Positions 1,126 through 17,298 of a DNA stretch of 39,584 nucleotides are shown here, piece after piece. Below the pieces are notes generated by a model. The model worked only from the letters and a program-made list of their open reading frames with translations, searched no databases and was not told the DNA's origin. The translations under genes were made by a program, and so were the position numbers. Location: assembly GCA_029211095.1 (NCBI GenBank), contig JARGFS010000008.1, positions 1 through 39,584 on the forward strand, given 5' to 3'. The DNA comes from a bacterium. Lineage in GTDB: Bacteria > Zixibacteria > MSB-5A5 > GN15 > FEB-12. Positions within the stretch are counted from its first letter, which is position 1. Each line of letters begins with the position of its first letter.

Positions 1126-4100
1126 CTACTTGAGCAGGACCATCTTCTTGGTGGCGCTGAAGTCAGATGCTTTCAGGCGGTAGAAGTAAATGCCTGAAGC
1201 TGCCGTCGTGCCGCCTTTGGCCGTTCCATCCCAGTCAAAGCTGACCTGTCCGGCTCCGCTGGAGCCGCGGAATTGTCTGACCAGCTTACCGGTTATATTG
1301 TATATCTCAATTTCCCAATCCGACTGGCGCGGCAATGAGAACGAGATTGTTGTCAACGGGTTGAACGGATTTGGATAGTTCTGATTAAGCGAAAACTCAT
1401 GCGGAAGAGCCGAGCCCTTGTAGTCAGTTGAATACTGACGGGCGAAATAGTCAACGAAATCCGAGGCAACCAATTCAATAGAGCCGGAACCTTCGTATTT
1501 TATCTCCAGCAACTCACGGCTTCCTTCGGGGATAGAGTTTTCGCCAATGTTATAAATAAGCACTCTCAGCTGTTTATCGATGACGCTGTATGCCATATCC
1601 ATATTGGTTGCATCCAGACCCGCCGTAACATCGGATATCTCAACTTCTCCGTTCAGGCTGTAGATCAGATGAGCGGCTCCAATACTGGAGACAGCCTCTG
1701 ACCTAACATGGAGGACGTCATTGATAATTTCCTCAGAAAGCACTAACTGATCCGGATAGGGAGTTACCGGTTTTGGCGTTGGATTGGCGTCACCAATAAT
1801 CACTCTGATCAGTTCCACCAGATCAGCCACAGTCAGAGTCAGGCCATCGGCATTGACATCAGTGGCGGCGGTCTGTCCGGCCGGATTCTTGACAAAAACG
1901 CTGATCCCGTATACAAAGTAGTTTGAGAACAGAACCGCATCAGCGATTTCATAAGGAACTTCGTTCAGATTGATATCGCCCCGATCATCAATCGTATCTG
2001 GATGAACAACACAGATGCCGCCATTTATGAACTCAACACATCTTATAGGAACAGTCGGCTTACTTCCGATACAGGAATCGGGGGCGCCAAGTCCGAACGG
2101 ACGGCTTGATTCGGGATAGATAGCGTCTATGGCTTCGTCCCAGATAATCAGCCGTTCAGCGTTTTTGATGCGGGAGTCAATATACAAATCATCCCCGGTA
2201 CGATTGGAGAATGAGTTGTCGGCACAATCAAACCAGAAGAATGAGATAGGCAGGAACTGATCACCCAGGTTCTGGTCATTGGCAATCTGATACTGCATTC
2301 TCACCAGGCGTCCGTTGGGTCGCAAAGACTCTTCCGGTGGGTGCAGGGCGCCATTGTTGGCATCGGCTATTCCAACCAGCCGGATCATTCCGCCCGGACA
2401 GGCTCCTCCGCAACTCCCGTTGTCGAGAATGCGGTACGTGAAGTATTCCCATCCCTCAATAGCGCCGCCCGAAATCACGGCTGACCTGAATGAGAGAACC
2501 GAAACATCATAACCGATTAACAGTTCAAAACCGCCGATATAATCATTGCTCTCTACATTTACATCAACATTCTGGACAATACCAACCGGCACACATCCGC
2601 CGCCGTCAATGGAGACACGGACGCAGACATCGCAGTCAATTCTTTCCTGAATAGTAACCAGGAAAGAGCCCTGGGCGCTGCTGCAACCGTCATCGGATTC
2701 GTAGCAGAATTCATAAACTCCTATCGAATCAGGCCGGAAACAGACGTTTCCACTACTGGGGCCAACCAGCTCGAACGTTCCGGCACCGCAGGTCTGGACC
2801 AGGCTGGCCGTATCCTGAGCATCGCTGGCAAAGATGCCTTCAATACAGATCAACTCGGTATCACTGGCACATCGGAAAATTGTTGTATCCGAAGGCAGCG
2901 TGAGAGTTGGGCCGGGGTCAGATAAAATATTAACCTGGGCGTAGCAGGTATCGGCATTGCAATCATTGTAGGCGATAATTTCAAGTTCATAATCTCCGGC
3001 TGAATCAACCGGGAAGCAGATTGCGCCGCCAGCGTATGTTCCAAATGGATTTACGTTCACGGAGACGCCGGTACCGGTGATTTCAACCGGGATACAGAGG
3101 CTGTCCGTATTCTCAACACAGGCCATAACGGCAAGAGGGGCCGGACAATTGATGGCCGCGAGTTCCTTGAAGGTTGTGTTGAGGGTGAAGCTACAGGTGT
3201 CGGCCCCACAGAGGCCGTTGGCGGCAACAGTCACCGTTGAGATGCCATCGTTTTCAACATACACACAGATCGTACCACTGGCAGGATCGTAGCTGCCATT
3301 GGGAAGAACCGTTACGGATGCGGTGGATGGCGTGACCGAGACCGGGATACAGACCGAATCCGGTCCTCCGCACAGCGTCGCGTACTGAGTATTCTCAGGA
3401 CAGATAACAACAGCGTTACCACCATGCGACACGGTAATCTTAATCGTATCCATGTCGATCGCGCCACAGGCGTCTTCGGCTGTCACAATGACCGTGCTAA
3501 CACCGTAACTTGTCGGGGTGAAACAGACCGTGGTATCATCAACCACCGTGCCATGCGAGCTAACGACGGACACGACGTTTCCATCGAGATCGGCCACACT
3601 ATAAGGGAAGCAGACTTCCGTTAGTTCGCAGGTTACCGTTTCAAAGTCAGCCCCAACATTTACAATCGGCCTACTGTTCATGGTCGAACTGATATCAAAA
3701 CTGCAGCTATCAACACCGCAGGTGGAGTAGGCGATAAGCGAGACTGTTACCACACCGCTTGATGACAGCGGAACCCGAATGGAATCTCCATCGACAAAAG
3801 CTGGTGCAGAAATCTCCAGGCTGTCATAAGTTCCCTGCAGACCAAAATCAAAAGCGAGAGTATCCGGTCCGCACAGAGCGACAGCGGTATCCCCCGGACA
3901 GGCGATAGCAACACTGGTTCCGATTGAGACAGTTATCATGCCCACCGCCGTATCAGTATTGCAGTCGGCCTCGGTGATAACCATTAACTCATAGATGCCC
4001 GTAGTGTCGGCAGTAAAACAGACCATTCCTTCGCCGAACTGGCCTAAGTTCGTGGTGAGGTTGTTGTAACTTCCTGATACCTGCACCGGGACGCAGATAT

Positions 4101-7100
4101 CGCCGACGTTGCAGAGGAAGACCGAACTATCAGCAACTGTGACATAGGCGCTGCTCTGCTGCTGGACATCTACACAAATAATGGCCTGATCGGTCAAGCC
4201 ACAGGAATCGCGCAAGGTAAGTTCAAGACAGTAGTATCCGCTGGTGTCAGGCAGGAAGCAGAGATAACCGGCATCAAGATCAACATGGCCGAGCGAAGCA
4301 CTTCCGTCCATCAGGTTACCATCGATATCAGTATAATTGAACGGCAGGCAGATGGAATCCAGGTCACAAACTGTGATGACCGTATCAATCGGATACGAGA
4401 TTATCTGCGGAGCGGAGTTTATCAGCGCTTCAATAATCATCTGGTCACTGTCGGCGGCACCACAGGAATCCTGGGCCATTACGGTAACCGTATATGTTCC
4501 CGGTCCGTCAATGGCCAGACATATCTGACCGAATACCGGATCGTAAACACCGCCGGTAACACTGATCTCGGAAATGTTATCATCGGCATCACTGATTCCC
4601 ACCGGAATACAAATGGAGTCCGGCTCACAGAGCGTCACCGTTTCATCCGGTGGCAAAATCACCAACGGACGGCTGTTGCAAACCGAGACCACCGTAAAGG
4701 AGCCGGTGTACTCGCCGCATTCGGTTGTGGCGGTAATGCTGATGTGGTTGGTTGTTCCACAATCAGAGTAGTAGCAAACGGTCTGGGTCGCGGCATCATA
4801 CCAGGTGTTGATACCGTTGACAGTAACATTGGCCCAGGCCGGAATACCGGTAATTGGGAAGCACATCGTATCCGGCACACATGAGAAGATGGTCGTATCA
4901 TTTGGAACTCCGATCGACACATCCTGATCAGTCCGGATGTCAACCAAAGCCGTGTCAACAGCACTCAAGCCACAGCTATCGGTGACCGTGAGGATCACCT
5001 CGTACTGACCAAAACTGCGCGGCATGAAGCAGATCATTCCATTGGAGTAGTAGCCCTGACTGACTGAAACCGAAGCTATGTTTCCATCAATATCTGAGAA
5101 ATCAGCCGGAACACAAATATAGCGCGGATAGCAGAGGTAGAAACTGGAGTCCGGCAGATTGGTGATCAGCGGAGCGCTGTTGAGCTCTATGTTAAGACCA
5201 ACTGTATCCGAAGCCATGAATCCGCAAGTATCGGTGACGGTAACAATCATCTGATAGTAACCGGAGGTATCGGGAGTGAAACAGACCTGTCCGGCCTGAG
5301 AATTGTAAGCGCCGAGATTGGAGATCAGGTTGAGCAGTTCCCCCGATGAATTAACATCAACGCATACTTCGGAAATATCGCACAACTGCAGATTCTGGTC
5401 TTCGCCAAGACTGACCGAAGGGCTCGTGTGCCCTACCACGGTTACCAGCGTGGTATCCGAACCACTCAGGCCGCAGGAGTCAATCGCCTCGACTACAAAA
5501 GTGTAGATTCCAGTAGTATCGGCCGTGAAGCAGATTTCTCCGCTCTGGCTGTCATAACCGGCGGGACCATTCAGAAATTCGATATCGCCATCAGACTGAA
5601 TCAATACGGTGCCAAAGCAGACGAGAGAGTCAGAACAGAGCGTTACCAGGAAGTCTTCCGGCATAGTGACAACCGGAGACGCATTGAGCTCAACAGTTAC
5701 AACAGAGGTGTCAGCATCGTAAGACCCGCAGGAATCAGTTGCAGTCAGAATAATCTCATATATCCCCGCCGTATCAGGAGTAAAACAGATGGTACCACTA
5801 CTCGGATTGTACTGACCAAGATTCGCGATAACAGAGCTGAGGTCGCCGTCGTTGTCTATGACGTTGGCGTCAATACAGATTTCCTGAACATCACAAAGGA
5901 TGAGGGCAGAATCCGGAGCAGTGCTGACTATCGGAGCTGAATTGCTGGTCACCGTGACCGGGACTGTGCAGGTATCGGTTGCGCCGCACTCGTCAATAGC
6001 CTCGATCATAATGCCGAACGAACCGTTCTCAGAGGCTACAAAGCAGATGTTGCTGCCATCTATAAGGGCATTTCCCGAAAGAAGGTTGACCGTTGTCTGG
6101 TCGCCGTCGGGATCATAGACTGAAACATCAAAACAGACGGTGTCGATCCCGCAGACGGCGGCAAAAATCGGTTCAGGGCAGGTAATCTCCGGAGCCCGAT
6201 TCATTATCACGGTAACATTAACCGTGTCACAAAAAGAGATCGGGTTTTTATCTGCACCCACGCATCCGTCGGAGACACAGTAGACGAAAGTATAAGTTGC
6301 CTGGGCAATATCTTCGGGCGTGAAACAGGTTCTGCCGGAGACAGAATCGATCTGGACAAACTGTCCGATCCCATCCGACTGATAGATATTCAAGTAGTCA
6401 AAGTCTGCATCGTAAGCAAAGATATCAAAACAAATTTCTTCAGGGGTGCAGAGGTAGACAGTGGTATCAAAGCCGGTGAATTCAGGCGGTGTGTTGATGT
6501 CAATAACATCCGTGATCCGGGCGGTGTCGACCGAACAGGAATCGGAAACTTCGACCACAAACTGATAAGTTCCTGCCGTATCAACGGCATAGGTGATCAA
6601 ACCGGCATTGTCAATTGTCCCGGTGCCGCTGATCAGCGAGAAGTCCAGCAGACTTCCGTCAGGGTCCGTGGCTACCACCTGAATCTGACGGGTTTCACCG
6701 CTAAAGCAGTAGAACTCTGAGTAAGTCGAATCATCTGCGATCGGAGCCTGGTTGACATCAATAGAAAGCGTGAACGAACTCTCACAGGTCAATCCGCAGG
6801 CATCACTGCAACGAATTGTCACCGTAACGCTTTCGTCCATAGTTGGAGTGTAGCACCAGAATCCTTCGGAGAGCGTGCCCGGCCCGCTTATGATCTGGCA
6901 GCCAGCAAGATCGCCGTCAACATCACTGGCCGTCACCGGCAAACAGATTTCAGCCGGAAGACAGACGGAGATTGAAGTATCATTCGGGATGTCACAAATG
7001 GGGGCCGAATTGAGCGGTACGTTGACAAGGGTAACGCAACTATCTACCGCGCCGCACTCATCGGTAACGGTGTAGACGATTCTATTCTGGCCAACAACCG

Positions 7101-10100
7101 GATCGAAGCAGATCGTCCCCTCGGTCAGGCTGCCAAGGCTTGTTGTCTCGGACAGGATATTTCCGTCCGGATCGGAAGAGCCAAATCCATCCAGGCAGAT
7201 CTGCGTGAGATCACAGAGTATCAGACTCGTATCTCCCGGGCAGAAAGCCTGAGGCGGATTGTTGACGGTAAAATCAAGATTGATGGTCTGCTCACAGAAT
7301 TCGCCGCACTCATCGGTGAAGCGAATAATGGAACTGATCGACTCCGTGCCGGTCGGGGTGTAGCAGAAACTACCTTCGATAATCTCTCCCCCACCACTGA
7401 CTATCTCGGTTGAGACCAGGTTGTTTTCGGCATCGGTTGCACTCAACGGGATACAAACCTCTTCAGGCGTGCACTGTCCTATAGTCGTGTCAATGTCAGC
7501 TTCACAAACTGGAGCCGTATTCAACTCCAGATCGACAACAAAGCTTCCGGAACATTCCAGACCACAGTCATCATAGCAGCGTACCGTGACCAGCACCTGC
7601 CCGGTCGCGGTCGGTTCGTACACCCAGAACCCTTCTATAATCTGGCCCGGTCCGCTGACGATCTCACAGGCGGCAAAGTTTCCATCCGGGTCCGATCCTG
7701 AGACCGGCATTCTAATCGTGTCGGACAGACACATAAAGATAGTTGTATCTCCGGGGAGATTGCAGGTCGGAGGCTGGTTGGCCTGGACCGTTACGTAAAT
7801 CTCATCACTATCAGTCTCGCCACACGTATCGGTTACCTGAATGGTGATATGATAGGTACCACTGGTATCCGGAGTGAAACAGACCTGACCAAAAGTGGGA
7901 TCATAGACAGCGCCGGTCACCTGGACATCGGCCACGTTATCATCGACATCTGAGATTCCTACCGGGAGACAGACCTCAGCTATTTCACAGGTCTGCATAG
8001 CCGTATCCGGTGGCAGAATAACCAGCGGCGGGCTGTTGCAGATGGATGTAACCGTGAAACTGTCGACATATACACCGCACTCAGTGGTAACGGACATGCT
8101 GATTCTGTTGGTGTTGCCACAGTCAGAGTAATAGCAAAGGGTACCACTCTCGGCATTGTACCAGGTGTTGATGCCATTTACAGTAACGTCAGCATCAACG
8201 GGAATCTGCCCCACCGGGAAACAGAGCGTATCAAGCTGGCAAGCAAAAATAACGGTGTCATCCGGCAGGTTCAACTGCACGGCCTGATCGGTCTGAATAT
8301 CGACCAGGGCGGTATCAACAGCAACATTGCCGCAACTGTCGGTTACCGTCAGGATGATCTCGTGGGCACCGGATGATCTCCCCTGGAAGCAGATCTCCCC
8401 TCCCTGCACATAGCCGGTGTTACTGGTGATCGACATGATGTCGCCATCCAGATCATAAGTGGTAAACGGAATACAGATATACTGAGGGAAGCACAGGTAG
8501 ATGGTCGTATCATAAAAATCAGCAATCACCGGCGGCTGTGCCAGATCGACCGTGATATTCATCGTGTCGGCAACCGTGGAGCCACAGGCCCCAAACGCGG
8601 TCAGCACTAATGTATAAGTACCTCCATCAACCGGGGTAAAACAGATATTTGATTCGGCTGGATTGAGCGTACCAATATTAGAATAGATTGAGTCATACGC
8701 GCCAGCAACAGAGTAATCAAGACAGATTTCTTCGGTCTGGCACAAAGCCAGCGAAGTATCACTGCCCAGCGAAACAACGGGACTCTCTTGTTCCGTAACA
8801 ATAATGTTTATGGTATCGGAGGCAATCTGGTCGCAACCATCCCCAACTTCGACAACCACGGTATAGAGTCCGGCTGTGTCAGCCGTAAAGCAGACTTCGC
8901 CGGTCTGGACGTTGTAACCACCAATACTGGAGCTGACATAGTGAATATTCTGATCGACCACATTTATCGGGAAGCAAATCTCCCGGCTGCCGCAAATATC
9001 AAAACTGAAATCATCCCCTACCGTGATCACCGGCAGGTCATTGAATTCGATTCCGACCAAAGTCGTATCGGCATCCACGGCACCGCAGGAATCAGTCACG
9101 GTCAGGATAACTGAATAAAGACCGGCTGTGTCCGGGGTAAAACAGATAGTGTTGTTGGAGGAATTATAAGTACCGATATTGGATACAGCCGATGCAATTT
9201 CACCTTCCGGATCATACGCCAACGCGCTAACACAAATCTGCTCCGGAGCACAGAGGAACATCTCAAAATCATTGCCGGTCGTGGCAACGGGGGGCTGGTT
9301 CGATGCGGTCAGAATCGGAATCGTGCAGCTGTCAGCCTGCCCACAGGAATCGGTAGCGGTTATGACCACATCAATGGAATCGGCCTGATTAGGATTGACA
9401 CAAACGGTCTGGCCGGTAATGGTTGCATTACCGGAGATAACATCATAAATCAGAACATCCCCCTCCGGATCAGAGGCGGAGATATCAAAACAGAAGAGGC
9501 TGTCGGAGAAACAGGCCGGGATTTCCAGAGGACCGGGACAACTCAGTTCCGGCGCCTGGTTGATCACCACCGTCACCCGGCAGGTGTCCACGCAGACACA
9601 GTCGGTCGGGTCGTTGGTGAAAGTCATGCAGCTGTCAGCCGCGCGGAAGACAAAGAAGTAATCGGCGCTGTCCACGGCCGCCGGATCAAAACAGGCCAGC
9701 CCGGAAGTATCGCTATTCATACTGAACGTGCCCGCGCCCTGGACCAGGCGAATCTCTATGGAGTCTCCATCCGGATCATGACCAAAAACATCAAAACAGA
9801 TTTCTTCCGGCTCACAGAGATAAAATACTCGGTCATCACACATCACCTGGGGAGGATTGTTGATAGAGACCTGATCGGTGATTAAAGCGGTGTCCGCCCC
9901 GCACCAGTTTGAGACCACCACTGTCCAGCTATAGCTTCCGGCCGTATCCGGAAAATAACTGATTGCACCGGTATTGGGATCAATTGTCCCCGGACCCGAG
10001 AGCAACGACCAATCAACGGAACCAATGCCGGAAGAATCAAAAGCAAGCGGCAGCAGGCGTGGATCATTTAGATTACATAGTCTGGCGGAGAAAGATTGAT

Positions 10101-10491
10101 CGGCAACTGTCGGCGCAGAACCATAGTCGACCGTAAAGGTCACAGTATCAATAACGAACTTGCCCCAGAGATCGCGTACTTTCCAGATGAACCGATACGT
10201 CCCCACGCTGTCCGGAAGGAAGCAGACATTTGCTGAGACCGGAGGATGACCGCCGATTGAGTCAAACAGAACCGGACCCTCAATAAGGAGGAGCGATACA
10301 ATATCGTTTGTATCCGGGTCGCTCGCGATTACTTCAAAACAGATTGAATCATTGCTGCAGGTAAGAATGGTCGAATCATCGGGAAGAGTAATTTCGGGAT
10401 ACCAGGCCGGATCCGCTTTAACTTCAGATGAAACACCAGGAATAAGAGCTGCAACAAGTATCAGCAACAGTAAATTTCTAACGATCCCCAT
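1126..10491 (-). CDS. Giant multi-module secreted protein with cohesin-like, dockerin-like and T9SS sorting domains
   Basis: A ~3,121-residue exported protein. I place the start at the ATG at 10489-10491, which gives MGIVRNLLLLILVAALIPG (a clean signal peptide), with GGAGG at 10505-10509 upstream; the open frame continues 23 codons further upstream without a signal-like start. Residues ~30-2610 hold about 30 modules of 80-90 residues, each with up to four Cys in a fixed pattern: a Cys near the start, then ICF/ICV, ICFTPDT, and TDSCG near the end. They resemble Ig/PKD/cadherin-like folds and often carry DxDGD. Residues ~2620-2760 look cohesin-like. About 2835-2890 is a dockerin-like pair (GDINLNE and DVNADG loops), followed by a second beta-rich segment. 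Residues ~3034-3121 are a T9SS sorting domain (NQNYPNPFNP, ending KKMVLLK). It is probably a surface fibre or adhesin; the ligand is unknown. A nine-module block is duplicated internally. Confidence 0.9.
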   Translation of the reverse strand: MGIVRNLLLLILVAALIPGVSSEVKADPAWYPEITLPDDSTILTCSNDSICFEVIASDPDTNDIVSLLLIEGPVLFDSIGGHPPVSANVCFLPDSVGTYRFIWKVRDLWGKFVIDTVTFTVDYGSAPTVADQSFSARLCNLNDPRLLPLAFDSSGIGSVDWSLLSGPGTIDPNTGAISYFPDTAGSYSWTVVVSNWCGADTALITDQVSINNPPQVMCDDRVFYLCEPEEICFDVFGHDPDGDSIEIRLVQGAGTFSMNSDTSGLACFDPAAVDSADYFFVFRAADSCMTFTNDPTDCVCVDTCRVTVVINQAPELSCPGPLEIPACFSDSLFCFDISASDPEGDVLIYDVISGNATITGQTVCVNPNQADSIDVVITATDSCGQADSCTIPILTASNQPPVATTGNDFEMFLCAPEQICVSALAYDPEGEIASAVSNIGTYNSSNNTICFTPDTAGLYSVILTVTDSCGAVDADTTLVGIEFNDLPVITVGDDFSFDICGSREICFPINVVDQNIHYVSSSIGGYNVQTGEVCFTADTAGLYTVVVEVGDGCDQIASDTINIIVTEQESPVVSLGSDTSLALCQTEEICLDYSVAGAYDSIYSNIGTLNPAESNICFTPVDGGTYTLVLTAFGACGSTVADTMNITVDLAQPPVIADFYDTTIYLCFPQYICIPFTTYDLDGDIMSITSNTGYVQGGEICFQGRSSGAHEIILTVTDSCGNVAVDTALVDIQTDQAVQLNLPDDTVIFACQLDTLCFPVGQIPVDADVTVNGINTWYNAESGTLCYYSDCGNTNRISMSVTTECGVYVDSFTVTSICNSPPLVILPPDTAMQTCEIAEVCLPVGISDVDDNVADVQVTGAVYDPTFGQVCFTPDTSGTYHITIQVTDTCGETDSDEIYVTVQANQPPTCNLPGDTTIFMCLSDTIRMPVSGSDPDGNFAACEIVSGPGQIIEGFWVYEPTATGQVLVTVRCYDDCGLECSGSFVVDLELNTAPVCEADIDTTIGQCTPEEVCIPLSATDAENNLVSTEIVSGGGEIIEGSFCYTPTGTESISSIIRFTDECGEFCEQTINLDFTVNNPPQAFCPGDTSLILCDLTQICLDGFGSSDPDGNILSETTSLGSLTEGTICFDPVVGQNRIVYTVTDECGAVDSCVTLVNVPLNSAPICDIPNDTSISVCLPAEICLPVTASDVDGDLAGCQIISGPGTLSEGFWCYTPTMDESVTVTIRCSDACGLTCESSFTLSIDVNQAPIADDSTYSEFYCFSGETRQIQVVATDPDGSLLDFSLISGTGTIDNAGLITYAVDTAGTYQFVVEVSDSCSVDTARITDVIDINTPPEFTGFDTTVYLCTPEEICFDIFAYDADFDYLNIYQSDGIGQFVQIDSVSGRTCFTPEDIAQATYTFVYCVSDGCVGADKNPISFCDTVNVTVIMNRAPEITCPEPIFAAVCGIDTVCFDVSVYDPDGDQTTVNLLSGNALIDGSNICFVASENGSFGIMIEAIDECGATDTCTVPVTVTSNSAPIVSTAPDSALILCDVQEICIDANVIDNDGDLSSVIANLGQYNPSSGTICFTPDTAGIYEIILTATDSCGSYDADTSVVTVELNASPVVTMPEDFLVTLCSDSLVCFGTVLIQSDGDIEFLNGPAGYDSQSGEICFTADTTGIYTFVVEAIDSCGLSGSDTTLVTVVGHTSPSVSLGEDQNLQLCDISEVCVDVNSSGELLNLISNLGAYNSQAGQVCFTPDTSGYYQMIVTVTDTCGFMASDTVGLNIELNSAPLITNLPDSSFYLCYPRYICVPADFSDIDGNIASVSVSQGYYSNGMICFMPRSFGQYEVILTVTDSCGLSAVDTALVDIRTDQDVSIGVPNDTTIFSCVPDTMCFPITGIPAWANVTVNGINTWYDAATQTVCYYSDCGTTNHISITATTECGEYTGSFTVVSVCNSRPLVILPPDETVTLCEPDSICIPVGISDADDNISEISVTGGVYDPVFGQICLAIDGPGTYTVTVMAQDSCGAADSDQMIIEALINSAPQIISYPIDTVITVCDLDSICLPFNYTDIDGNLMDGSASLGHVDLDAGYLCFLPDTSGYYCLELTLRDSCGLTDQAIICVDVQQQSSAYVTVADSSVFLCNVGDICVPVQVSGSYNNLTTNLGQFGEGMVCFTADTTGIYELMVITEADCNTDTAVGMITVSIGTSVAIACPGDTAVALCGPDTLAFDFGLQGTYDSLEISAPAFVDGDSIRVPLSSSGVVTVSLIAYSTCGVDSCSFDISSTMNSRPIVNVGADFETVTCELTEVCFPYSVADLDGNVVSVVSSHGTVVDDTTVCFTPTSYGVSTVIVTAEDACGAIDMDTIKITVSHGGNAVVICPENTQYATLCGGPDSVCIPVSVTPSTASVTVLPNGSYDPASGTICVYVENDGISTVTVAANGLCGADTCSFTLNTTFKELAAINCPAPLAVMACVENTDSLCIPVEITGTGVSVNVNPFGTYAGGAICFPVDSAGDYELEIIAYNDCNADTCYAQVNILSDPGPTLTLPSDTTIFRCASDTELICIEGIFASDAQDTASLVQTCGAGTFELVGPSSGNVCFRPDSIGVYEFCYESDDGCSSAQGSFLVTIQERIDCDVCVRVSIDGGGCVPVGIVQNVDVNVESNDYIGGFELLIGYDVSVLSFRSAVISGGAIEGWEYFTYRILDNGSCGGACPGGMIRLVGIADANNGALHPPEESLRPNGRLVRMQYQIANDQNLGDQFLPISFFWFDCADNSFSNRTGDDLYIDSRIKNAERLIIWDEAIDAIYPESSRPFGLGAPDSCIGSKPTVPIRCVEFINGGICVVHPDTIDDRGDINLNEVPYEIADAVLFSNYFVYGISVFVKNPAGQTAATDVNADGLTLTVADLVELIRVIIGDANPTPKPVTPYPDQLVLSEEIINDVLHVRSEAVSSIGAAHLIYSLNGEVEISDVTAGLDATNMDMAYSVIDKQLRVLIYNIGENSIPEGSRELLEIKYEGSGSIELVASDFVDYFARQYSTDYKGSALPHEFSLNQNYPNPFNPLTTISFSLPRQSDWEIEIYNITGKLVRQFRGSSGAGQVSFDWDGTAKGGTTAASGIYFYRLKASDFSATKKMVLLK
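4415..6751 (-). repeat. Segmental duplication, copy 2 (nine modules)
   Basis: The C-terminal-proximal copy of the nine-module block. It aligns collinearly with copy 1 (7775-10120). CACAAATAT...GCAGAGGTAGA near 5111 pairs with ACAGATAT...GCACAGGTAGA near 8471, again 3,360 bases apart. The flanking modules (four before it in the protein, seven after) do not repeat in the same order. Ends are approximate because modules throughout the protein resemble each other. Confidence 0.8.
7775..10120 (-). repeat. Segmental duplication, copy 1 (nine modules)
   Basis: The copy nearer the N-terminus of a nine-module block in the giant gene. Module order and idiosyncrasies match copy 2 at 4415-6751: the eighth module carries VTVNGINTWY and CYYSDCG, and the ninth begins PLVILPPD. 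At DNA level CCAGGTGTTGAT begins at 8161 here and at 4801 in copy 2, a 3,360-base offset that is an exact multiple of three. Toward the 5' end of the gene the offset grows to 3,366-3,369, consistent with small in-frame indels. Ends are approximate. Confidence 0.8.
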
Positions 10492-10699
10492 CGTATATAT
10501 CTTTCCTCCAAAAATGAGTCGATCAGACTCAAACTTTATGGCTGCGGTCAAGGCGACCACAGTATTACCACAATTGCGGCAAATGCTCGAAGGGGTCTAA
10601 AGCGACCTCAATGAGCAATAGAGATATCTTTCCTAAATGACCAAATTGAGCACTGGTAGAACTTCGTGTAGTAATTTTGTCATTCTCTTTAGTCACCGC

Positions 10700-10901: not shown

Positions 10902-10957
10902 AGGGTAGAGATCGAGTGGGATTTTCATGGCTGGCAAGCCTCAAACACACCTATATT

Positions 10958-13900
10958 ATGTCTATGACAAGAAAAAGAGTTTTCAGGAGGTCCTGGCCTT
11001 TCAGATCCGGCGCAGTTATTACGCTTTTGGCCCTGCATTTGGGCTCCTTTGTGGCTCTTGCCGAACAAAACGAGAGCGGACAGATCATCACCCCCACTTA
11101 TGACTATCTTGAGCAGTATACTTCAAAATTCACCACCAGGCTCAGCAGCCGCGGCTGGCTGGGTTCCTCCTACAAAGATGCCGGACCGAATTCCGGTTTT
11201 GAGTTCCCGGCTGGCTCCAATACTGAGTTAATCGATGCCCTGGGGCTCTGGGTTGGCGGGATTGTTAGGACTGATACGCTGGTCTCGGTGACCGCAATGA
11301 GAGAGTTTTTCATCCCGATTCGAGACGAAGTCCAATACAGCGAGTTTTTCAATCAATCCCTGCCGGAGAATCAATCCCCTTTTACTCAGATCAAAGTACC
11401 GGGCGGAGTTATCAACGAAACAACCTATTCAGACACGGTCGTCGGTAATACCCCGGAACTTCCGCCGGATTTTTTCTTTCATCGTCCCCACCATCCACTC
11501 GGGATTGATGTCCGCCAGAAGAGCTACTCCCTTAATCTGGCACCGTTCAAAAATATTCTCCTGCTGGACTATACCATCAGCAGTGTCGGTACCGAAAACA
11601 TCCGTGATGCCTATGTTGGAATCTATCTCGACCCGACCACAAAACTTGGAAGCGTCAATCTGTACGGAGCCGGTGGATTGGCCGGAACGTTCAAAGAGAG
11701 TGCTACCGCCTACGCGATAGATGCCGATGGCGAGACCGGGTTCGACTATTACTCGCCGGCACCGGACGCAATTGCTCTGAGATTTGTTTCCGCCTATCCC
11801 CCCCCAACCGACACCAATTTCAACTGGTGGCTGGCCTACCCCGCTCCGGATTTTGGTCCGCGCCAAAAGGAGACGACAGCCGATCCGTTCTTTGATTTTC
11901 GTTCCGGGCGCCTGGGGATGCCAAACGGAGACATCAACAAGTATTACCTCCTGAGCCATCCTGAATGGGACTATGACCAGGTGATGACCGCTCTTGTCCC
12001 GGACAATGATCCAATCTGGACCTATCCGCCGGATATCTGGGCAGACTCAATTGCGCAGGGGCAGAATCCGGCCATGCTTTTGTCGGTGGGACCATTCCAT
12101 CTGGAGCCGAGACAATCTATCCGCCTCATTTTTTCTCTTTTCGGGGCTGAGTACATTCACATTGATCCGGACAACAAAGATGAGTTGTATGCCGGAAACT
12201 ACGAGCAATTCTATAACGGGCTCAACTTTGACTTTCTGCATACATATACTTCTTTATCCAAAGATATGTCCGATGAATTGGTTGATCCGCTGGCCCGTCC
12301 GAGCGGACTGGAACTGATCGACCTGGTCGGTGACCGAGCGATAATCAGGTGGCACCCCTGGGTTTTCCCGGAAGTGGCCGAGTGCAAAGTCTACCTTGAC
12401 AAAGTACCCGCCGAACAACTTCTCACCCCTAACCTGCCCCGACCCAATGCAAGTCCGACTGACCCACGAACAACCTTCCATATCACCTCCGCCGGAAGAC
12501 TCGTCGACACGCTCAACGGATTGGAGCCGGGCCAGCTCTATTTTGTTTCGGTGGCCAATATCGCCGGTCTCTACCGGGGGGAGCTAAGCGAACCGATTGT
12601 TATTGGAGATAGAAATCGCGGCTTTGATCTGTCGGCCGTAAAACCCTTGAGGCAGTTCGCGCACTTTTATGAGTCTGATTCAACTGTCCGTCTGAGTTGG
12701 GAGTCGGAAACACGGGAAGTCAGCAAATACCGGATTTATCGGACCACCGACAGCCTGCTGGCCGCCACTCGCTTTAGTCCGTTACTCTCAGACACAGGCC
12801 TCTCAGCCGACATCTCCCCCACCAGGTGCTGGGGAATTAACGGAAGGAACCTCTGTTTTTATCAGCTCACTCCCTATGACTCGATCAGCGGCGATGCCTC
12901 CGCCTACTATGATCATGACCCGGTCGACAATGCCTGGTACTGGATCACGGCGGTAAACCGGTTTGGGTATGAGTCTGAGCTCTCCACACTGATCAAATCA
13001 GAACGGGCAAAAGCTCCAACCAGAGATGTATTGGTTCTGCTCGGAACTACTTCCTCTCTGCACGACTACGTTAGCCAGGACTCGTTGATTTCGTTTTATT
13101 CGCGTCTGCTGACGGGGCTTGACTTTGACCTCTATGATTGGTCTCAAAATGTTCTGTTCAACCCTGCCTGCAGCCTGAGTAGCTGCCCCGACTGGCAGGA
13201 CTTTGCCGATTACCGCCTGATCCTGGTGGAAGAGTTCCCCTCCCCTCGCCTGCTGGACCCAAACCATGACGGAAAGAACCAACTCCTGGCGCGGCTTCTT
13301 GACGGGGGGCATACCGTTGCTTGTTTTGGCCCACCGCCGGGGAACCGGACTTTGAATCTGGCTTCTGAGTTTCTGCAACTTGATTATTCTGAGAACAGCT
13401 TTGTGCGTGAATATCTTGGAATCAGTGCCACCCATATCAGACCCTGGGCCGTCAGCTACCAGCAGTTTGGCGTCATTGACAGTCTGGCCGGTTTCTGTTC
13501 CGCTATTCCATATAATGATGATCTCCCCCCCCTGGGGATTGATCTTAACAACGTGCGAGTCAACGACTTCTTTCAGGATCTATTTGTCACAACATCCAGT
13601 CTGCCGTTTACACCCGCTTTTCTACCAGAGCGTGAGAGCGAACTGCTCTATCTATACGGATCGCGCTTCCTGACTTCGTCAGAACTGCACGGGATGGCGT
13701 GCGGAGTTCTGAATCATCGAGAGTTTGCCGATGCCTACTCCTTCTCATTCCATCTCTGGGGCATCTCTGAGGGAGATGCCCGGAAGCTGATCGACTATAT
13801 CATGCTCCGGTCCCCTTCCCGCACCATTCCGAACTCCCCGCCAATAATCCCTGTCTCGCTCTCACTCGGACAGAATTTCCCCAATCCGTTTAACGGAGAG

Positions 13901-14134
13901 ACCGTTCTTAGTTTTTCGCTGGATAAGCCATCAAAACTAAACCTTGAGATATTCAATATTCTCGGCCGGAAAGTCCGCACCCTGATTTCCAATCAGCCTT
14001 TTGATGCCGGTAAACATGAAGTCACCTGGGATGGACGGGCAGACTCACATAAAGCTGTAGCCACCGGCGTCTACCTCTATCGGCTGAAAACCGAAACCGA
14101 AACCATGACACGAAAGATGGTGCTGCTAAAGTGA
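10958..14134 (+). CDS. Secreted T9SS-sorted protein, paralog 1 (FN3-like and Rossmann-like domains)
   Basis: A ~1,058-residue exported protein of unknown function. The ATG at 10958 (or 10964) gives a basic n-region, TRKRVFRRSW, then a hydrophobic stretch ending VALAE; an in-frame GTG at 10916 is possible but would give an unusually long n-region. Layout: an N-terminal beta-rich region (~40-440) with FNWW and LLSVGPFHLEP motifs shared with the next gene; two fibronectin-III-like segments (~446-555 and ~564-685); a Rossmann/flavodoxin-like region (~687-945) starting DVLVLLGTTSS and including LARLLDGGHTVACFG, reminiscent of gingipain-like or GATase1-like folds; and a T9SS sorting domain (~968-1058; GQNFPNPFNG, ending RKMVLLK). 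No catalytic dyad can be assigned by eye. The stop overlaps a potential GTG of the downstream paralog, so the two are probably co-expressed. Confidence 0.85.
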   Translation: MSMTRKRVFRRSWPFRSGAVITLLALHLGSFVALAEQNESGQIITPTYDYLEQYTSKFTTRLSSRGWLGSSYKDAGPNSGFEFPAGSNTELIDALGLWVGGIVRTDTLVSVTAMREFFIPIRDEVQYSEFFNQSLPENQSPFTQIKVPGGVINETTYSDTVVGNTPELPPDFFFHRPHHPLGIDVRQKSYSLNLAPFKNILLLDYTISSVGTENIRDAYVGIYLDPTTKLGSVNLYGAGGLAGTFKESATAYAIDADGETGFDYYSPAPDAIALRFVSAYPPPTDTNFNWWLAYPAPDFGPRQKETTADPFFDFRSGRLGMPNGDINKYYLLSHPEWDYDQVMTALVPDNDPIWTYPPDIWADSIAQGQNPAMLLSVGPFHLEPRQSIRLIFSLFGAEYIHIDPDNKDELYAGNYEQFYNGLNFDFLHTYTSLSKDMSDELVDPLARPSGLELIDLVGDRAIIRWHPWVFPEVAECKVYLDKVPAEQLLTPNLPRPNASPTDPRTTFHITSAGRLVDTLNGLEPGQLYFVSVANIAGLYRGELSEPIVIGDRNRGFDLSAVKPLRQFAHFYESDSTVRLSWESETREVSKYRIYRTTDSLLAATRFSPLLSDTGLSADISPTRCWGINGRNLCFYQLTPYDSISGDASAYYDHDPVDNAWYWITAVNRFGYESELSTLIKSERAKAPTRDVLVLLGTTSSLHDYVSQDSLISFYSRLLTGLDFDLYDWSQNVLFNPACSLSSCPDWQDFADYRLILVEEFPSPRLLDPNHDGKNQLLARLLDGGHTVACFGPPPGNRTLNLASEFLQLDYSENSFVREYLGISATHIRPWAVSYQQFGVIDSLAGFCSAIPYNDDLPPLGIDLNNVRVNDFFQDLFVTTSSLPFTPAFLPERESELLYLYGSRFLTSSELHGMACGVLNHREFADAYSFSFHLWGISEGDARKLIDYIMLRSPSRTIPNSPPIIPVSLSLGQNFPNPFNGETVLSFSLDKPSKLNLEIFNILGRKVRTLISNQPFDAGKHEVTWDGRADSHKAVATGVYLYRLKTETETMTRKMVLLK

Positions 14135-14139
14135 GAGCG

Positions 14140-17100
14140 ATGCAATCATCCCCGTACCGGCTGACTTTCTGGTTTCTGCTGTTGACCATGTCGACCGGAG
14201 CAGCCGCCCAGGACAAACAGGAGTATTACGAGCAGAAGTCGCACGCCATCACGGCCGCGCTCGCAAAACCAGGAGTTGAAATCTATGACCCTCCTCTGAA
14301 CTGGCCGCTCTATTGGGGTCTGCAACGAACCAGTGAACTTGAAACCAGTTTTGATTGTTTTGGCGTGATCGGCGGAATCAGAGCATCTCGTCCATATTAC
14401 ACTCCCTACTGGCGCTCCGCTTCGTTTGAATCTCCACCCGGTTCGGGAATAGAGTATATGTATTCCGGTGGTATCTTTATCGGCGGCATAATTGGTGACT
14501 CAACTCATGTTTCCACGGTATTACAGGTTTTCCGGGGATACGATGCCGAATTCCGACCAACCGGGAACATCCTGCCGGGCAAAATTGAGACGGTCACAAA
14601 ATTCAACTACATCAGTGACTTTGCAATGCGGGCGGAACTGGCCGACACTTTTATTGTCTCTTCGCCGCTGATAATTCGCCACCGTCCGATGGGACTCCAG
14701 ATCAGCCTCCGGAATCATGTCTGGCGCACCGATGGAACGGCCGGCACCGTAATTTACGATATGGTACTGACCAACATCGGCCACGAATATATCGAGGACT
14801 GTGTGGTGAGTCTTTACATAGAGCCGGACATTTGCTATGACTGCAATCTGAATTTCGGCTTTTCTGATGATTTGGCGGGCGGTATACAGGAGCTTGGAAT
14901 CGGGTACGCCATTGACAACAACGGGGATCCTTTTGGTGACCCGTACGATCCATTCTACAATCCAATCCGGGCTATTGCCGGTAAGTTCCTTTCAAGCTCT
15001 TTCGCTCCGATAGACACCTCATTTAACTGGTGGACCGGTAGCGGGGGCTACAACTATACTTTTGGACCATACCAGGTTGATTCCGCCGGAAACCCCCTGG
15101 ACTGTATGATCCGGGATTCCATATATGGGACTATTGATCTAACCGAAGAAAACCTTTATTGCTTGCTCAGCGATCGGAGTTGGGACCCGGACCAAGCCTG
15201 GACCTACAAACCGCCCCCCGGCTGGGCCATCCCGAGTGATGCTAACCTGATTGCCACCGGTCGGGACATAAGATTTTTGCTTTCACTGGGGAAGTTTGAT
15301 CTTGCACCCGATTCAAGCATCCGGGTTCAGTTTGCCACCTTTATTGGCCGTGGGGTGCATGTTTCCCCCGACAACTCTTTGAATCTCCCCGTACATCCGG
15401 AGCTATTCACGGACAATCTGAACTTTGATGATCTCATTCTTAACGCGGCAATCTCCGATTCCCTGGGACAGCTTCTGCTTGACCCAACCCTCCCCCCCAT
15501 TGGGTTGCACACGGTTAATCTGAGCGAAGATTCTGCGCACCTCGAATGGGACCCCTGGGTCTATCCCGAAGTGACGGGCTATGAACTGTATGTCACCGAA
15601 ATCCCGGATTCGGTCACCCCATACCCACAAGTTCCTCCCCCCTGGTATAGTCCGTCTGAATTCTCAGACACCATCTCACTCGGAAGAGTAAGAAAACAGA
15701 CTCTCTTTGGCTTAGACCCGTTCAAAATGTACGCGGTTTGCCTTGCACACCGGTTAGCCAGTGGGATTTCACAATTAAGTGATCCGATTTATATCCCTCC
15801 TCAGAAATCACTCCCTCCTCCGAAAATCGAGTCAGAGTACCTTTTTGTTCAAGACAATGAGCCGGTAATTATTGAATGGGAGGCCCCGGACTCTGTCGAC
15901 ACTGACTACTACAACATTTATAAGTTCAACAACCAGACGGCTTCAAATGAACGTTTTGAGCCATTCTATGATGATGGTTTCTGGATGGACTCCTTGATGG
16001 CTGTTGATAGTTTCCTGTATGGCAACACCTATTATTATTACCACATGCCTGTCTATCTTACGGTTGATTCCGGGACTACTTCCACCCTTGACTACTATGC
16101 CGCAGATGGAAATGTATTCGTTATCACGGCTGTCGACAAGAGCGGACAGGAGACCAGTTTCTCAACCGAGGTCTCGGTCAACAAGATTGATGAACGAACC
16201 AAAGATATTCTTGTCATTACCAGTTCCAACAGCTGGTACAATACCCTCGTTTCGACAGATTCCATTGAACTCTTCTATCGAAACCTCCTCTTTGGCTATG
16301 ACTATGATATCTATTCTCTTCATGACTCATTAATCATTGACCAACAGTGGAGAATGGACTGGCACGATCTGACCCGATACAAATCAGTTATCATAGATGA
16401 CCAGATACGCTCTGAGGCTCTTGATGCTTCCTTTGAAGACAGCACCCGAGGAGTAACCCGCTTCCTCGCCTCCGGTGGCAGGCTGGCCTACTTTGGCTCC
16501 CTGGCAACTTTCACTGACAACGGGCTGCACTCGCCACCCGGTTTTCGTCCTCTAACCGGACCTCTTTTTGAGAACTTCATTGGTGTGGACTCGGTCTATT
16601 CGGTTGGACTTGCCTATTATCTGGACAGTACCACTGCGCCGTTCATGGACACGTTGTTCGGATTTCAAAGGGCGGAATCAGTCAATGGCTACATTCCGAA
16701 TCTGACCTTTGAGTATCCGGAGGGTTTTTTCACTCCCTTTCTCCATTCTCTCTGGCCGCAAGCTTCCGCTCCCACCGTGGCCACATTTGCCCCGCGCACC
16801 AACGCAACCGTCACCCATCTTTTCAGGTCTCATTCTCCGACCTCATCCAGAATCGAAGGAAACCCGGTTGGAGTTCTTACCGAGTACGGCGGGGCTGTCG
16901 CCTACCTGTTTGGATTCCATCTTTGGTACATGAACCAGGTCAACGCCCGGCACTTGATTGACTACATCATGCTCCTTCCCACCGATGTTGCCGAAAGTGC
17001 CGAGAACAGCCTTCCCACTTCCATTGAACTGCACCAGAATTATCCCAACCCTTTCAACCCGGAGACTAACATACGGTTCTCTCTTCCTGTCAAAGCGGAG

Positions 17101-17298
17101 ATATCGCTGGAACTGTTCAATATTCTTGGGCGAAAAGTCCGTACGTTGGCCGATCACCAGTCCTTTGCTCCGGGGAGCCACAGTATCAGATGGGACGGTC
17201 TGACCAGATCCGGGCAACCCGCCGCCAGTGGTCTTTACTTTTATCGCCTCAACGTGGCCGAAAAAAGCTATTCGCGCAAGATGATCCTGCTTCGCTAA
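14140..17298 (+). CDS. Secreted T9SS-sorted protein, paralog 2
   Basis: A ~1,052-residue exported protein with the same layout as its upstream neighbour. It has a signal peptide ending STGAAAQ, and an N-terminal beta-rich region with EYMYSGGIFIGGIIGDS and FNWW. FN3-like segments begin near residues 453 and 560. A Rossmann-like region begins near residue 687 (KDILVITSSNSWYN), and a T9SS sorting domain occupies ~961-1052 (NYPNPFNPETNI, ending RKMILLR). Corresponding landmarks fall at almost the same residue numbers in both proteins, but identity looks low, so the tandem duplication is old. The start could be the GTG at 14131, which overlaps the upstream TGA, or the ATG at 14140; both give a plausible signal peptide. 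Function is not recognised; cell-surface or secreted location is inferred from the sorting domain. Confidence 0.85.
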   Translation: MQSSPYRLTFWFLLLTMSTGAAAQDKQEYYEQKSHAITAALAKPGVEIYDPPLNWPLYWGLQRTSELETSFDCFGVIGGIRASRPYYTPYWRSASFESPPGSGIEYMYSGGIFIGGIIGDSTHVSTVLQVFRGYDAEFRPTGNILPGKIETVTKFNYISDFAMRAELADTFIVSSPLIIRHRPMGLQISLRNHVWRTDGTAGTVIYDMVLTNIGHEYIEDCVVSLYIEPDICYDCNLNFGFSDDLAGGIQELGIGYAIDNNGDPFGDPYDPFYNPIRAIAGKFLSSSFAPIDTSFNWWTGSGGYNYTFGPYQVDSAGNPLDCMIRDSIYGTIDLTEENLYCLLSDRSWDPDQAWTYKPPPGWAIPSDANLIATGRDIRFLLSLGKFDLAPDSSIRVQFATFIGRGVHVSPDNSLNLPVHPELFTDNLNFDDLILNAAISDSLGQLLLDPTLPPIGLHTVNLSEDSAHLEWDPWVYPEVTGYELYVTEIPDSVTPYPQVPPPWYSPSEFSDTISLGRVRKQTLFGLDPFKMYAVCLAHRLASGISQLSDPIYIPPQKSLPPPKIESEYLFVQDNEPVIIEWEAPDSVDTDYYNIYKFNNQTASNERFEPFYDDGFWMDSLMAVDSFLYGNTYYYYHMPVYLTVDSGTTSTLDYYAADGNVFVITAVDKSGQETSFSTEVSVNKIDERTKDILVITSSNSWYNTLVSTDSIELFYRNLLFGYDYDIYSLHDSLIIDQQWRMDWHDLTRYKSVIIDDQIRSEALDASFEDSTRGVTRFLASGGRLAYFGSLATFTDNGLHSPPGFRPLTGPLFENFIGVDSVYSVGLAYYLDSTTAPFMDTLFGFQRAESVNGYIPNLTFEYPEGFFTPFLHSLWPQASAPTVATFAPRTNATVTHLFRSHSPTSSRIEGNPVGVLTEYGGAVAYLFGFHLWYMNQVNARHLIDYIMLLPTDVAESAENSLPTSIELHQNYPNPFNPETNIRFSLPVKAEISLELFNILGRKVRTLADHQSFAPGSHSIRWDGLTRSGQPAASGLYFYRLNVAEKSYSRKMILLR

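Follow-up and report, generated by a model that had tools for sequence, protein, structure and literature searches.

Giant repeat proteins tend to be viewed as chains of interchangeable beads. In titin (connectin), super-repeats have been described as 7- and 11-domain units in the A-band and as 6-Ig and 10-Ig units in the middle-Ig region, and its domain classes A to J recur in order, with different blocks duplicated in different lineages (PMC12241362). Among bacteria, the BAP proteins of Acinetobacter are giant surface proteins built from 80- to 110-aa Ig-like modules, which fall into several classes in a lineage-dependent order (PMC4647330).

Here we examine a giant repeat protein encoded in a 39,584-nucleotide stretch of Zixibacteria DNA, the whole of which is called the window. 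Our literature search found no paper on giant proteins from Zixibacteria. We consider it fairly probable that the protein is an exported string of beads in which a block with the modules g-h-i was duplicated long ago, gene conversion has since acted on h, and the two blocks offer matched contact sites at a flexible distance.

Results

The giant gene lies at positions 1126 to 10560 on the reverse strand of the window, in a 3,144-aa open frame. An internal Met at residue 24, which precedes the putative signal peptide, gives a protein of about 3,121 aa, in line with the ~3,120 residues estimated by an earlier sequence-only reading. The layout consists of a putative signal peptide, 30 Ig/PKD-like modules, a C-terminal region, and a type IX secretion system (T9SS) tail. 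The N-terminal hydrophobic stretch, MGIVRNLLLLILVAALIPGVSSEVKA, was taken by eye as a Sec signal peptide. The tail (1135 to 1377, reverse strand; residues 3062 to 3141) matched the type A T9SS sorting domain TIGR04183 with 49.3 bits against a cut-off of 23, as type A cargo does. There are 37 T9SS cargo tails in the window's genome, which also has a PorU-like sortase match (286.7 bits, under the cut-off of 420) on broken contigs. The sorting domain and the cargo tails suggest that the giant protein is displayed on the cell surface or released via type IX secretion.

The C-terminal region (1378 to 2628, reverse strand) fell into no Pfam family. Segments in it looked cohesin- and dockerin-like by eye only, and this identity was rejected, as Pfam gave neither a cohesin nor a dockerin hit at E values up to 10. 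The predicted fold of the region was also poor (pLDDT 46.9), and the assignment was not used. No RNA families were found in the window, and a search of the PDB by sequence gave only weak PKD/FlgD matches. Two adjoining genes (10916 to 17298; 1,072 and 1,055 aa), which are paralogs of one another and both have T9SS-type C-terminal domains, are oriented head to head relative to the giant gene. Contig C175 of the same genome carries a 3,153-aa open frame with a T9SS tail, which may be the second giant protein known from related genomes (L044 to L049, below).

Using an iterated module HMM, we delimited 30 modules of about 86 residues each between residues 54 and 2640. The modules matched Big_9 (PF17963; E 4e-33) and PKD (PF00801; E 3e-16) in Pfam, both above the cut-offs. 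Written as classes, the array is N-abcdefghi-wxyz-abcdefghi-pqrstu-C, all on the reverse strand. Module M1 (class N; 10120 to 10401) lies outside the duplicated block and is followed by block A (M2 to M10; 7774 to 10119; residues 148 to 929), a spacer of w, x, y, and z (M11 to M14; 6751 to 7773), block B (M15 to M23; 4411 to 6750; residues 1271 to 2050), which is collinear with A, and the tail modules p, q, r, s, t, u, and C (M24 to M30; 2629 to 4410). Within the spacer, M11, M12, and M14 match one another best. M1 and M30 (2629 to 2913) are also reciprocal best matches (46% identity), yet they cap opposite ends of the array.

In a set of 1,080 modules, model columns 15 and 70 nearly always held a cysteine, and three further pairs covaried (C21-C51, phi 0.97; C6-C76, 0.98; C4-C74, 0.97). 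The covarying columns likely mark disulfides. Module h is atypical, with an additional pair of cysteines and the motifs NGINTWY and CYYSDCG. Its block A copy (M9, VTVNGINTWYN...CYYSDCG; 8032 to 8283) is 62% identical to the block B copy (M22; 4672 to 4923), which has six cysteines. An AlphaFold2 model of the block B triad g-h-i (4411 to 5175; the block A triad is at 7774 to 8535) had a mean pLDDT of 91.7 and three all-beta domains. The best fold matches of this model were 4m00_A (SraP; E 8.8e-12) and titin I65-I70 (3b43; E 1.1e-9). The matches are strings of Ig and cadherin domains, and the triad is predicted to be a tandem array of beta-sandwiches like them.

The sequence-only reading had claimed that a collinear block of nine modules occurs twice, with four modules between the copies and registers of 3,360 and 3,366 bases. 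This held, with M2 to M10 repeated as M15 to M23 and M11 to M14 between them; its landmarks were accurate to within a few bases, and a 3,357-base stretch lies between the two registers. The self-comparison that it had proposed as a check gave ungapped diagonals near 1,120 residues. Residues 548 to 931 aligned with 1668 to 2051 (+1120; 384 aa, 51% identity; 3,360 bases in the DNA), 357 to 530 with 1476 to 1649 (+1119; 44%; 3,357 bases), and 196 to 318 with 1318 to 1440 (+1122; 44%; 3,366 bases). Paired modules of A and B were 36 to 62% identical at offsets of 1,119 to 1,122 aa. In a 30x30 score matrix, 7 of the 9 pairs (a, b, c, d, g, h, and i) were reciprocal best matches. The exceptions, e (M6/M19) and f (M7/M20), are outscored by M18/M20-type modules. 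An offset of 13 modules had the top mean score among all 28 offsets (145.5; the next was 93.9). When M15 to M23 were permuted, 1 of 200,000 arrangements reached the observed sum, and this was the observed order itself, the maximum. As in titin, then, an ordered block of distinct classes is repeated in the same order.

When relatives were included in a module tree, a, b, c, g, h, and i grouped with their own classes and d, e, and f were not resolved; the class assignment of these three is weak, and module trees rest on only about 84 columns. The duplication is old, as had been proposed, for it is common to the sister genus g16, and the z-type spacer also occurs in g4, g15, g21, and g28. The g16 gene is split over two contigs, with the A block and a z-x-y-z spacer on one (L120) and the B block on the other (L019). 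Between A and B of the window, 10 of 23 four-fold sites are alike in h and 9 of 17 in i, with most silent sites at background.

Relatives found by protein search were Candidatus Zixiibacteriota MAGs, with matches in 49 of the 54 genomes of the window's family. We fetched 40 loci as an ortholog set and assigned each module to a class; the MAG contigs are fragmented and several orthologs are truncated. At most loci the giant gene is followed by RlmH, UPF0047, and SMC, and acetyl-CoA synthetase often precedes it. The window carries the marker genes of this locus, for UPF0047 and a SPOUT methyltransferase (RlmH), at 198 to 1059 on the forward strand. Because of the giant-RlmH-UPF0047-SMC synteny, we regard the giant genes as true orthologs. 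Three genomes (G002, G001, and G030) have the syntenic locus without the giant gene and the gene elsewhere, and genomes of genus g11 have the neighbor genes and no giant gene. The G040 gene is split over two contigs with near-identical overlapping ends, the 3' contig being at the syntenic locus. Homologs of the 10916 to 17298 pair lie between RlmH and acetyl-CoA synthetase in g11 genomes without the giant gene (L092); at another g11 locus (L097), the pair is present and the synthetase was not seen. Several of the same genomes encode a second giant Cys-rich module protein (L044 to L049) with its own collinear block of 7 to 12 modules at an offset of 10.

We counted 14 genera with two-block forms and 4 with single-block forms. 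Three orthologs (L010, L034, and L025) have the single-block string abcdefghi-i'-qrstu-C, and with L014 (truncated) and L024 (e/f expansions) five family members have one g-h-i. The possibility that single-block forms are paralogs at another locus was partly excluded, as the gene is at the syntenic locus in G039 and, judged by its 3' contig, in G040; in G002, G001, and G030, as noted above, it is elsewhere. The window-type two-block plan, with 4 to 9 spacer modules, occurs in genera g4, g15, g16, g21, and g28. The other half of the family duplicates another unit, efghi-i'-qrstu, at an offset of 11 or 14 modules. In two g15 orthologs (L006 and L008), an unrelated region of ~170 residues replaces the N-terminal module. 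Judged by class assignment, the modules retain their positional identity throughout the family.

Could the second block be no more than extra length, gained by unequal recombination and ordered without function? Local amplifications elsewhere would fit such neutral growth (M11, M12, and M14 in the window; the zyzyzyzyz spacer of g21), as would the lack of conserved spacing and the viability of single-block forms. However, the classes stay in place from genus to genus, and h remains paired as its neighbors diverge. We think neutral growth rather unlikely.

An rpoB tree separated the family into two subgroups, and a tree of the f-g-h-i unit recovered the same two. In the unit tree, A and B of one genus were sisters in most genera, not sorted by position, and well-supported branches forced at least 12 label changes. 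With all four modules, AU tests rejected a single family-wide A/B split without later exchange and also rejected an all-A clade in each subgroup; across both subgroups, the single split was rejected even without h (p 2.7e-5). For subgroup II, removing h allowed an all-A clade (AU p=0.144), while h alone rejected it (delta lnL 180, p 2e-122). Splitting the unit thus explains the pairing by genus in subgroup II, where h carries most of it. For subgroup I, an A clade was rejected both with and without h. The z-type spacer modules of six genera (the window's and five others) formed one starred clade and are absent from single-block forms. This shared clade in subgroup I therefore implies one origin of the two-block plan, with exchange extending beyond h.

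The sequence-only reading expected each module of A to be sister to its counterpart in B. This was true of h, whose copies pair, and failed for module a; with relatives included, a-B of the window paired with a-B of g16, and a-A paired with a-A of subgroup II. For module b, the A-A and B-B identities with g28 were higher than the cross values. These comparisons present the block as a mosaic, its edges old and orthologous and its core homogenized.

The sister position of A and B in most genera, seen in the four-module tree, is also what recurrent independent duplication would leave, with a second block that is young in every genus. The duplicated unit differs as well, being a-i in subgroup I and e-u in subgroup II, which calls for at least two independent events or heavy remodeling. 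Against this, architecture and spacer types are common to several genera, the offset-14 forms share the same s-q junction in several genera, and A/B orthology is already seen for the flanking modules a and b. Moreover, the within-genome pairing of subgroup II largely dissolves without h, where a single A clade is allowed. We consider recurrent duplication improbable and continue with one old block that was later homogenized in part.

In the window's family, the two copies of h change in concert, and h was the peak of A/B identity in most genomes. In subgroup II, the A and B copies of h averaged 73% identity within a genome versus 58% for the same position between genera; for g and f, the two kinds of identity barely differed. 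A/B identity was above that to every copy from other genera in 13 of 23 genomes for h, in 1 for g, and in 2 for f. The clearest case was L030, whose h copies are 96% identical in amino acids and 93% in DNA. Here, 30-base windows had 80 to 100% DNA identity across h and mostly 30 to 75% in either flank. Of 42 four-fold sites in h, 32 matched (background 35%, p 5e-8), and there was a 101-bp exact repeat, with a maximum of 15 after synonymous shuffling. The tract is absent from the congener L021 (h A-A 79%), implying that the transfer was recent. Since the copies differ and lie on long contigs, the tract is unlikely to be an assembly artefact. A weaker and older tract was present in L018 (25 of 36 four-fold sites, p 3e-4). 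After correction, silent-site support for conversion was significant in only two genomes; elsewhere, the window included, saturated third positions hide the difference between older copying and selection, and selection on h could account for part of the matching. In genus g30 (L035, L036, and L039), both h copies, about 930 residues apart, have lost the C21-C51 pair, now R and W. In L028 and L027, this pair was lost from copy A only.

Selection alone, acting on both h copies through the same constraint, might yield coordinated adaptation without any exchange of DNA. Silent sites that match no better than background in most genomes are consistent with this, and the paired disulfide loss in g30 resembles coordinated change. 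The silent-site identity and sharp tract borders of L030 and L018 go beyond what selection at the protein level could produce, and we doubt that selection suffices. We conclude that recombination between blocks copied h in L030, that the tract in L018 supports the same there, and that such copying may have kept h matched elsewhere in the family.

The sister families f3 and f4 belong to the same taxonomic order as the window's family, and their proteins have the same start (N-a-b) and end (q-t-u-C). They also carry two or more h modules, usually two, with three in one or two cases. Their h copies are not concerted, and the h modules of the window's family all fall into one clade relative to f3 and f4 (starred support of 99). 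Either the block doubled ahead of the split between the families, with h homogenized afterwards in the window's family, or each family doubled its block separately. One sister-family protein of 4,190 aa (L113) has three h modules at steps of exactly 14 modules, with runs of 12 to 13 y-type modules in between, which looks like a third, independent super-repeat.

The retained block order had been taken as a hint of a functional super-unit or a length constraint. The latter found no support, since A and B are 11, 13, 14, 18, or 19 modules apart in the family and h modules are 3 to 19 apart in the sister families; the constant period that ties titin repeats to a structural ruler is missing here. 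A molecular ruler, in which the ~1,120-aa register sets physical spacing, is largely refuted by this variability and most improbable; offsets of 13 or 14 do recur in several genera, and steps of 14 in L113, but 3, 4, 8, 9, 11, 12, 16, 18, and 19 also occur. The super-unit found partial support, since the g-h-i core is retained in relatives and the full set of nine modules is not. Blocks in the window's family (f1) were recognized by the ghi triad, so this retention is partly circular, but f3 and f4 have more than one h module as well. What persists, as far as the class strings tell, is the triad g-h-i, centered on the NGINTWY module h.

Discussion

In the reading that we favor, Ig/PKD-like modules stapled by likely disulfides occupy fixed positions, and a block ending in g-h-i was duplicated long ago. 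Recombination between the homologous blocks would then insert or remove modules and copy h from block to block. The triad, centered on h, may be the active part that contacts a ligand or partner, in which case two matched h copies would provide a pair of equivalent contact sites whose distance can vary, and the remaining modules could serve as rigid spacers. We regard h as a candidate functional module because it stays matched between blocks, probably through copying. Counting against this reading are the five family members with one g-h-i, the h copies of f3 and f4, which are not concerted, and the PorU-like match under its cut-off. A more specific proposal is that h is the working site, with intragenic conversion keeping its two copies identical in each species as every other module drifts apart, so that the protein acts as a bivalent receptor with co-tuned sites; we offer this tentatively, as one chance among several.

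On this evidence, the beads of this protein have conserved addresses across a bacterial family, and copying between blocks sets one of these, h, apart. This copying points to a likely seat of function in a family on which our literature search showed no experimental work.

The window's modules pass the Pfam cut-offs for both Big_9 (PF17963) and PKD (PF00801). They differ from proteins of those families in their invariant C15-C70, the covarying C21-C51, C6-C76, and C4-C74, and their positional classes. The ligand-binding region of SraP and the Ig and cadherin strings in the PDB are the best fold matches of the g-h-i model, although sequence identity is only 10 to 20% and whole-chain TM is 0.3 to 0.5. 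Such low values are expected because the matches are domain by domain. Giant Ig-like adhesins such as BAP seem to be the closest bacterial analogues, with no membership claimed. In the portions of the Acinetobacter report drawn on here, BAP has other modules and C-terminal regions and no T9SS tail, and no collinear pair of blocks with a single concerted module is reported (PMC4647330).

Like titin, the giant protein is a very long chain of Ig folds that has grown by multidomain blocks as well as by single domains and has positional classes. Titin is eukaryotic and intracellular and has many copies of its super-repeats, whereas the protein described here has two copies, is bacterial, probably secreted, and Cys-stapled, confines copying to one module, and has no fixed period. 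It offers a bacterial parallel to titin's growth by blocks, traceable across dozens of genomes.
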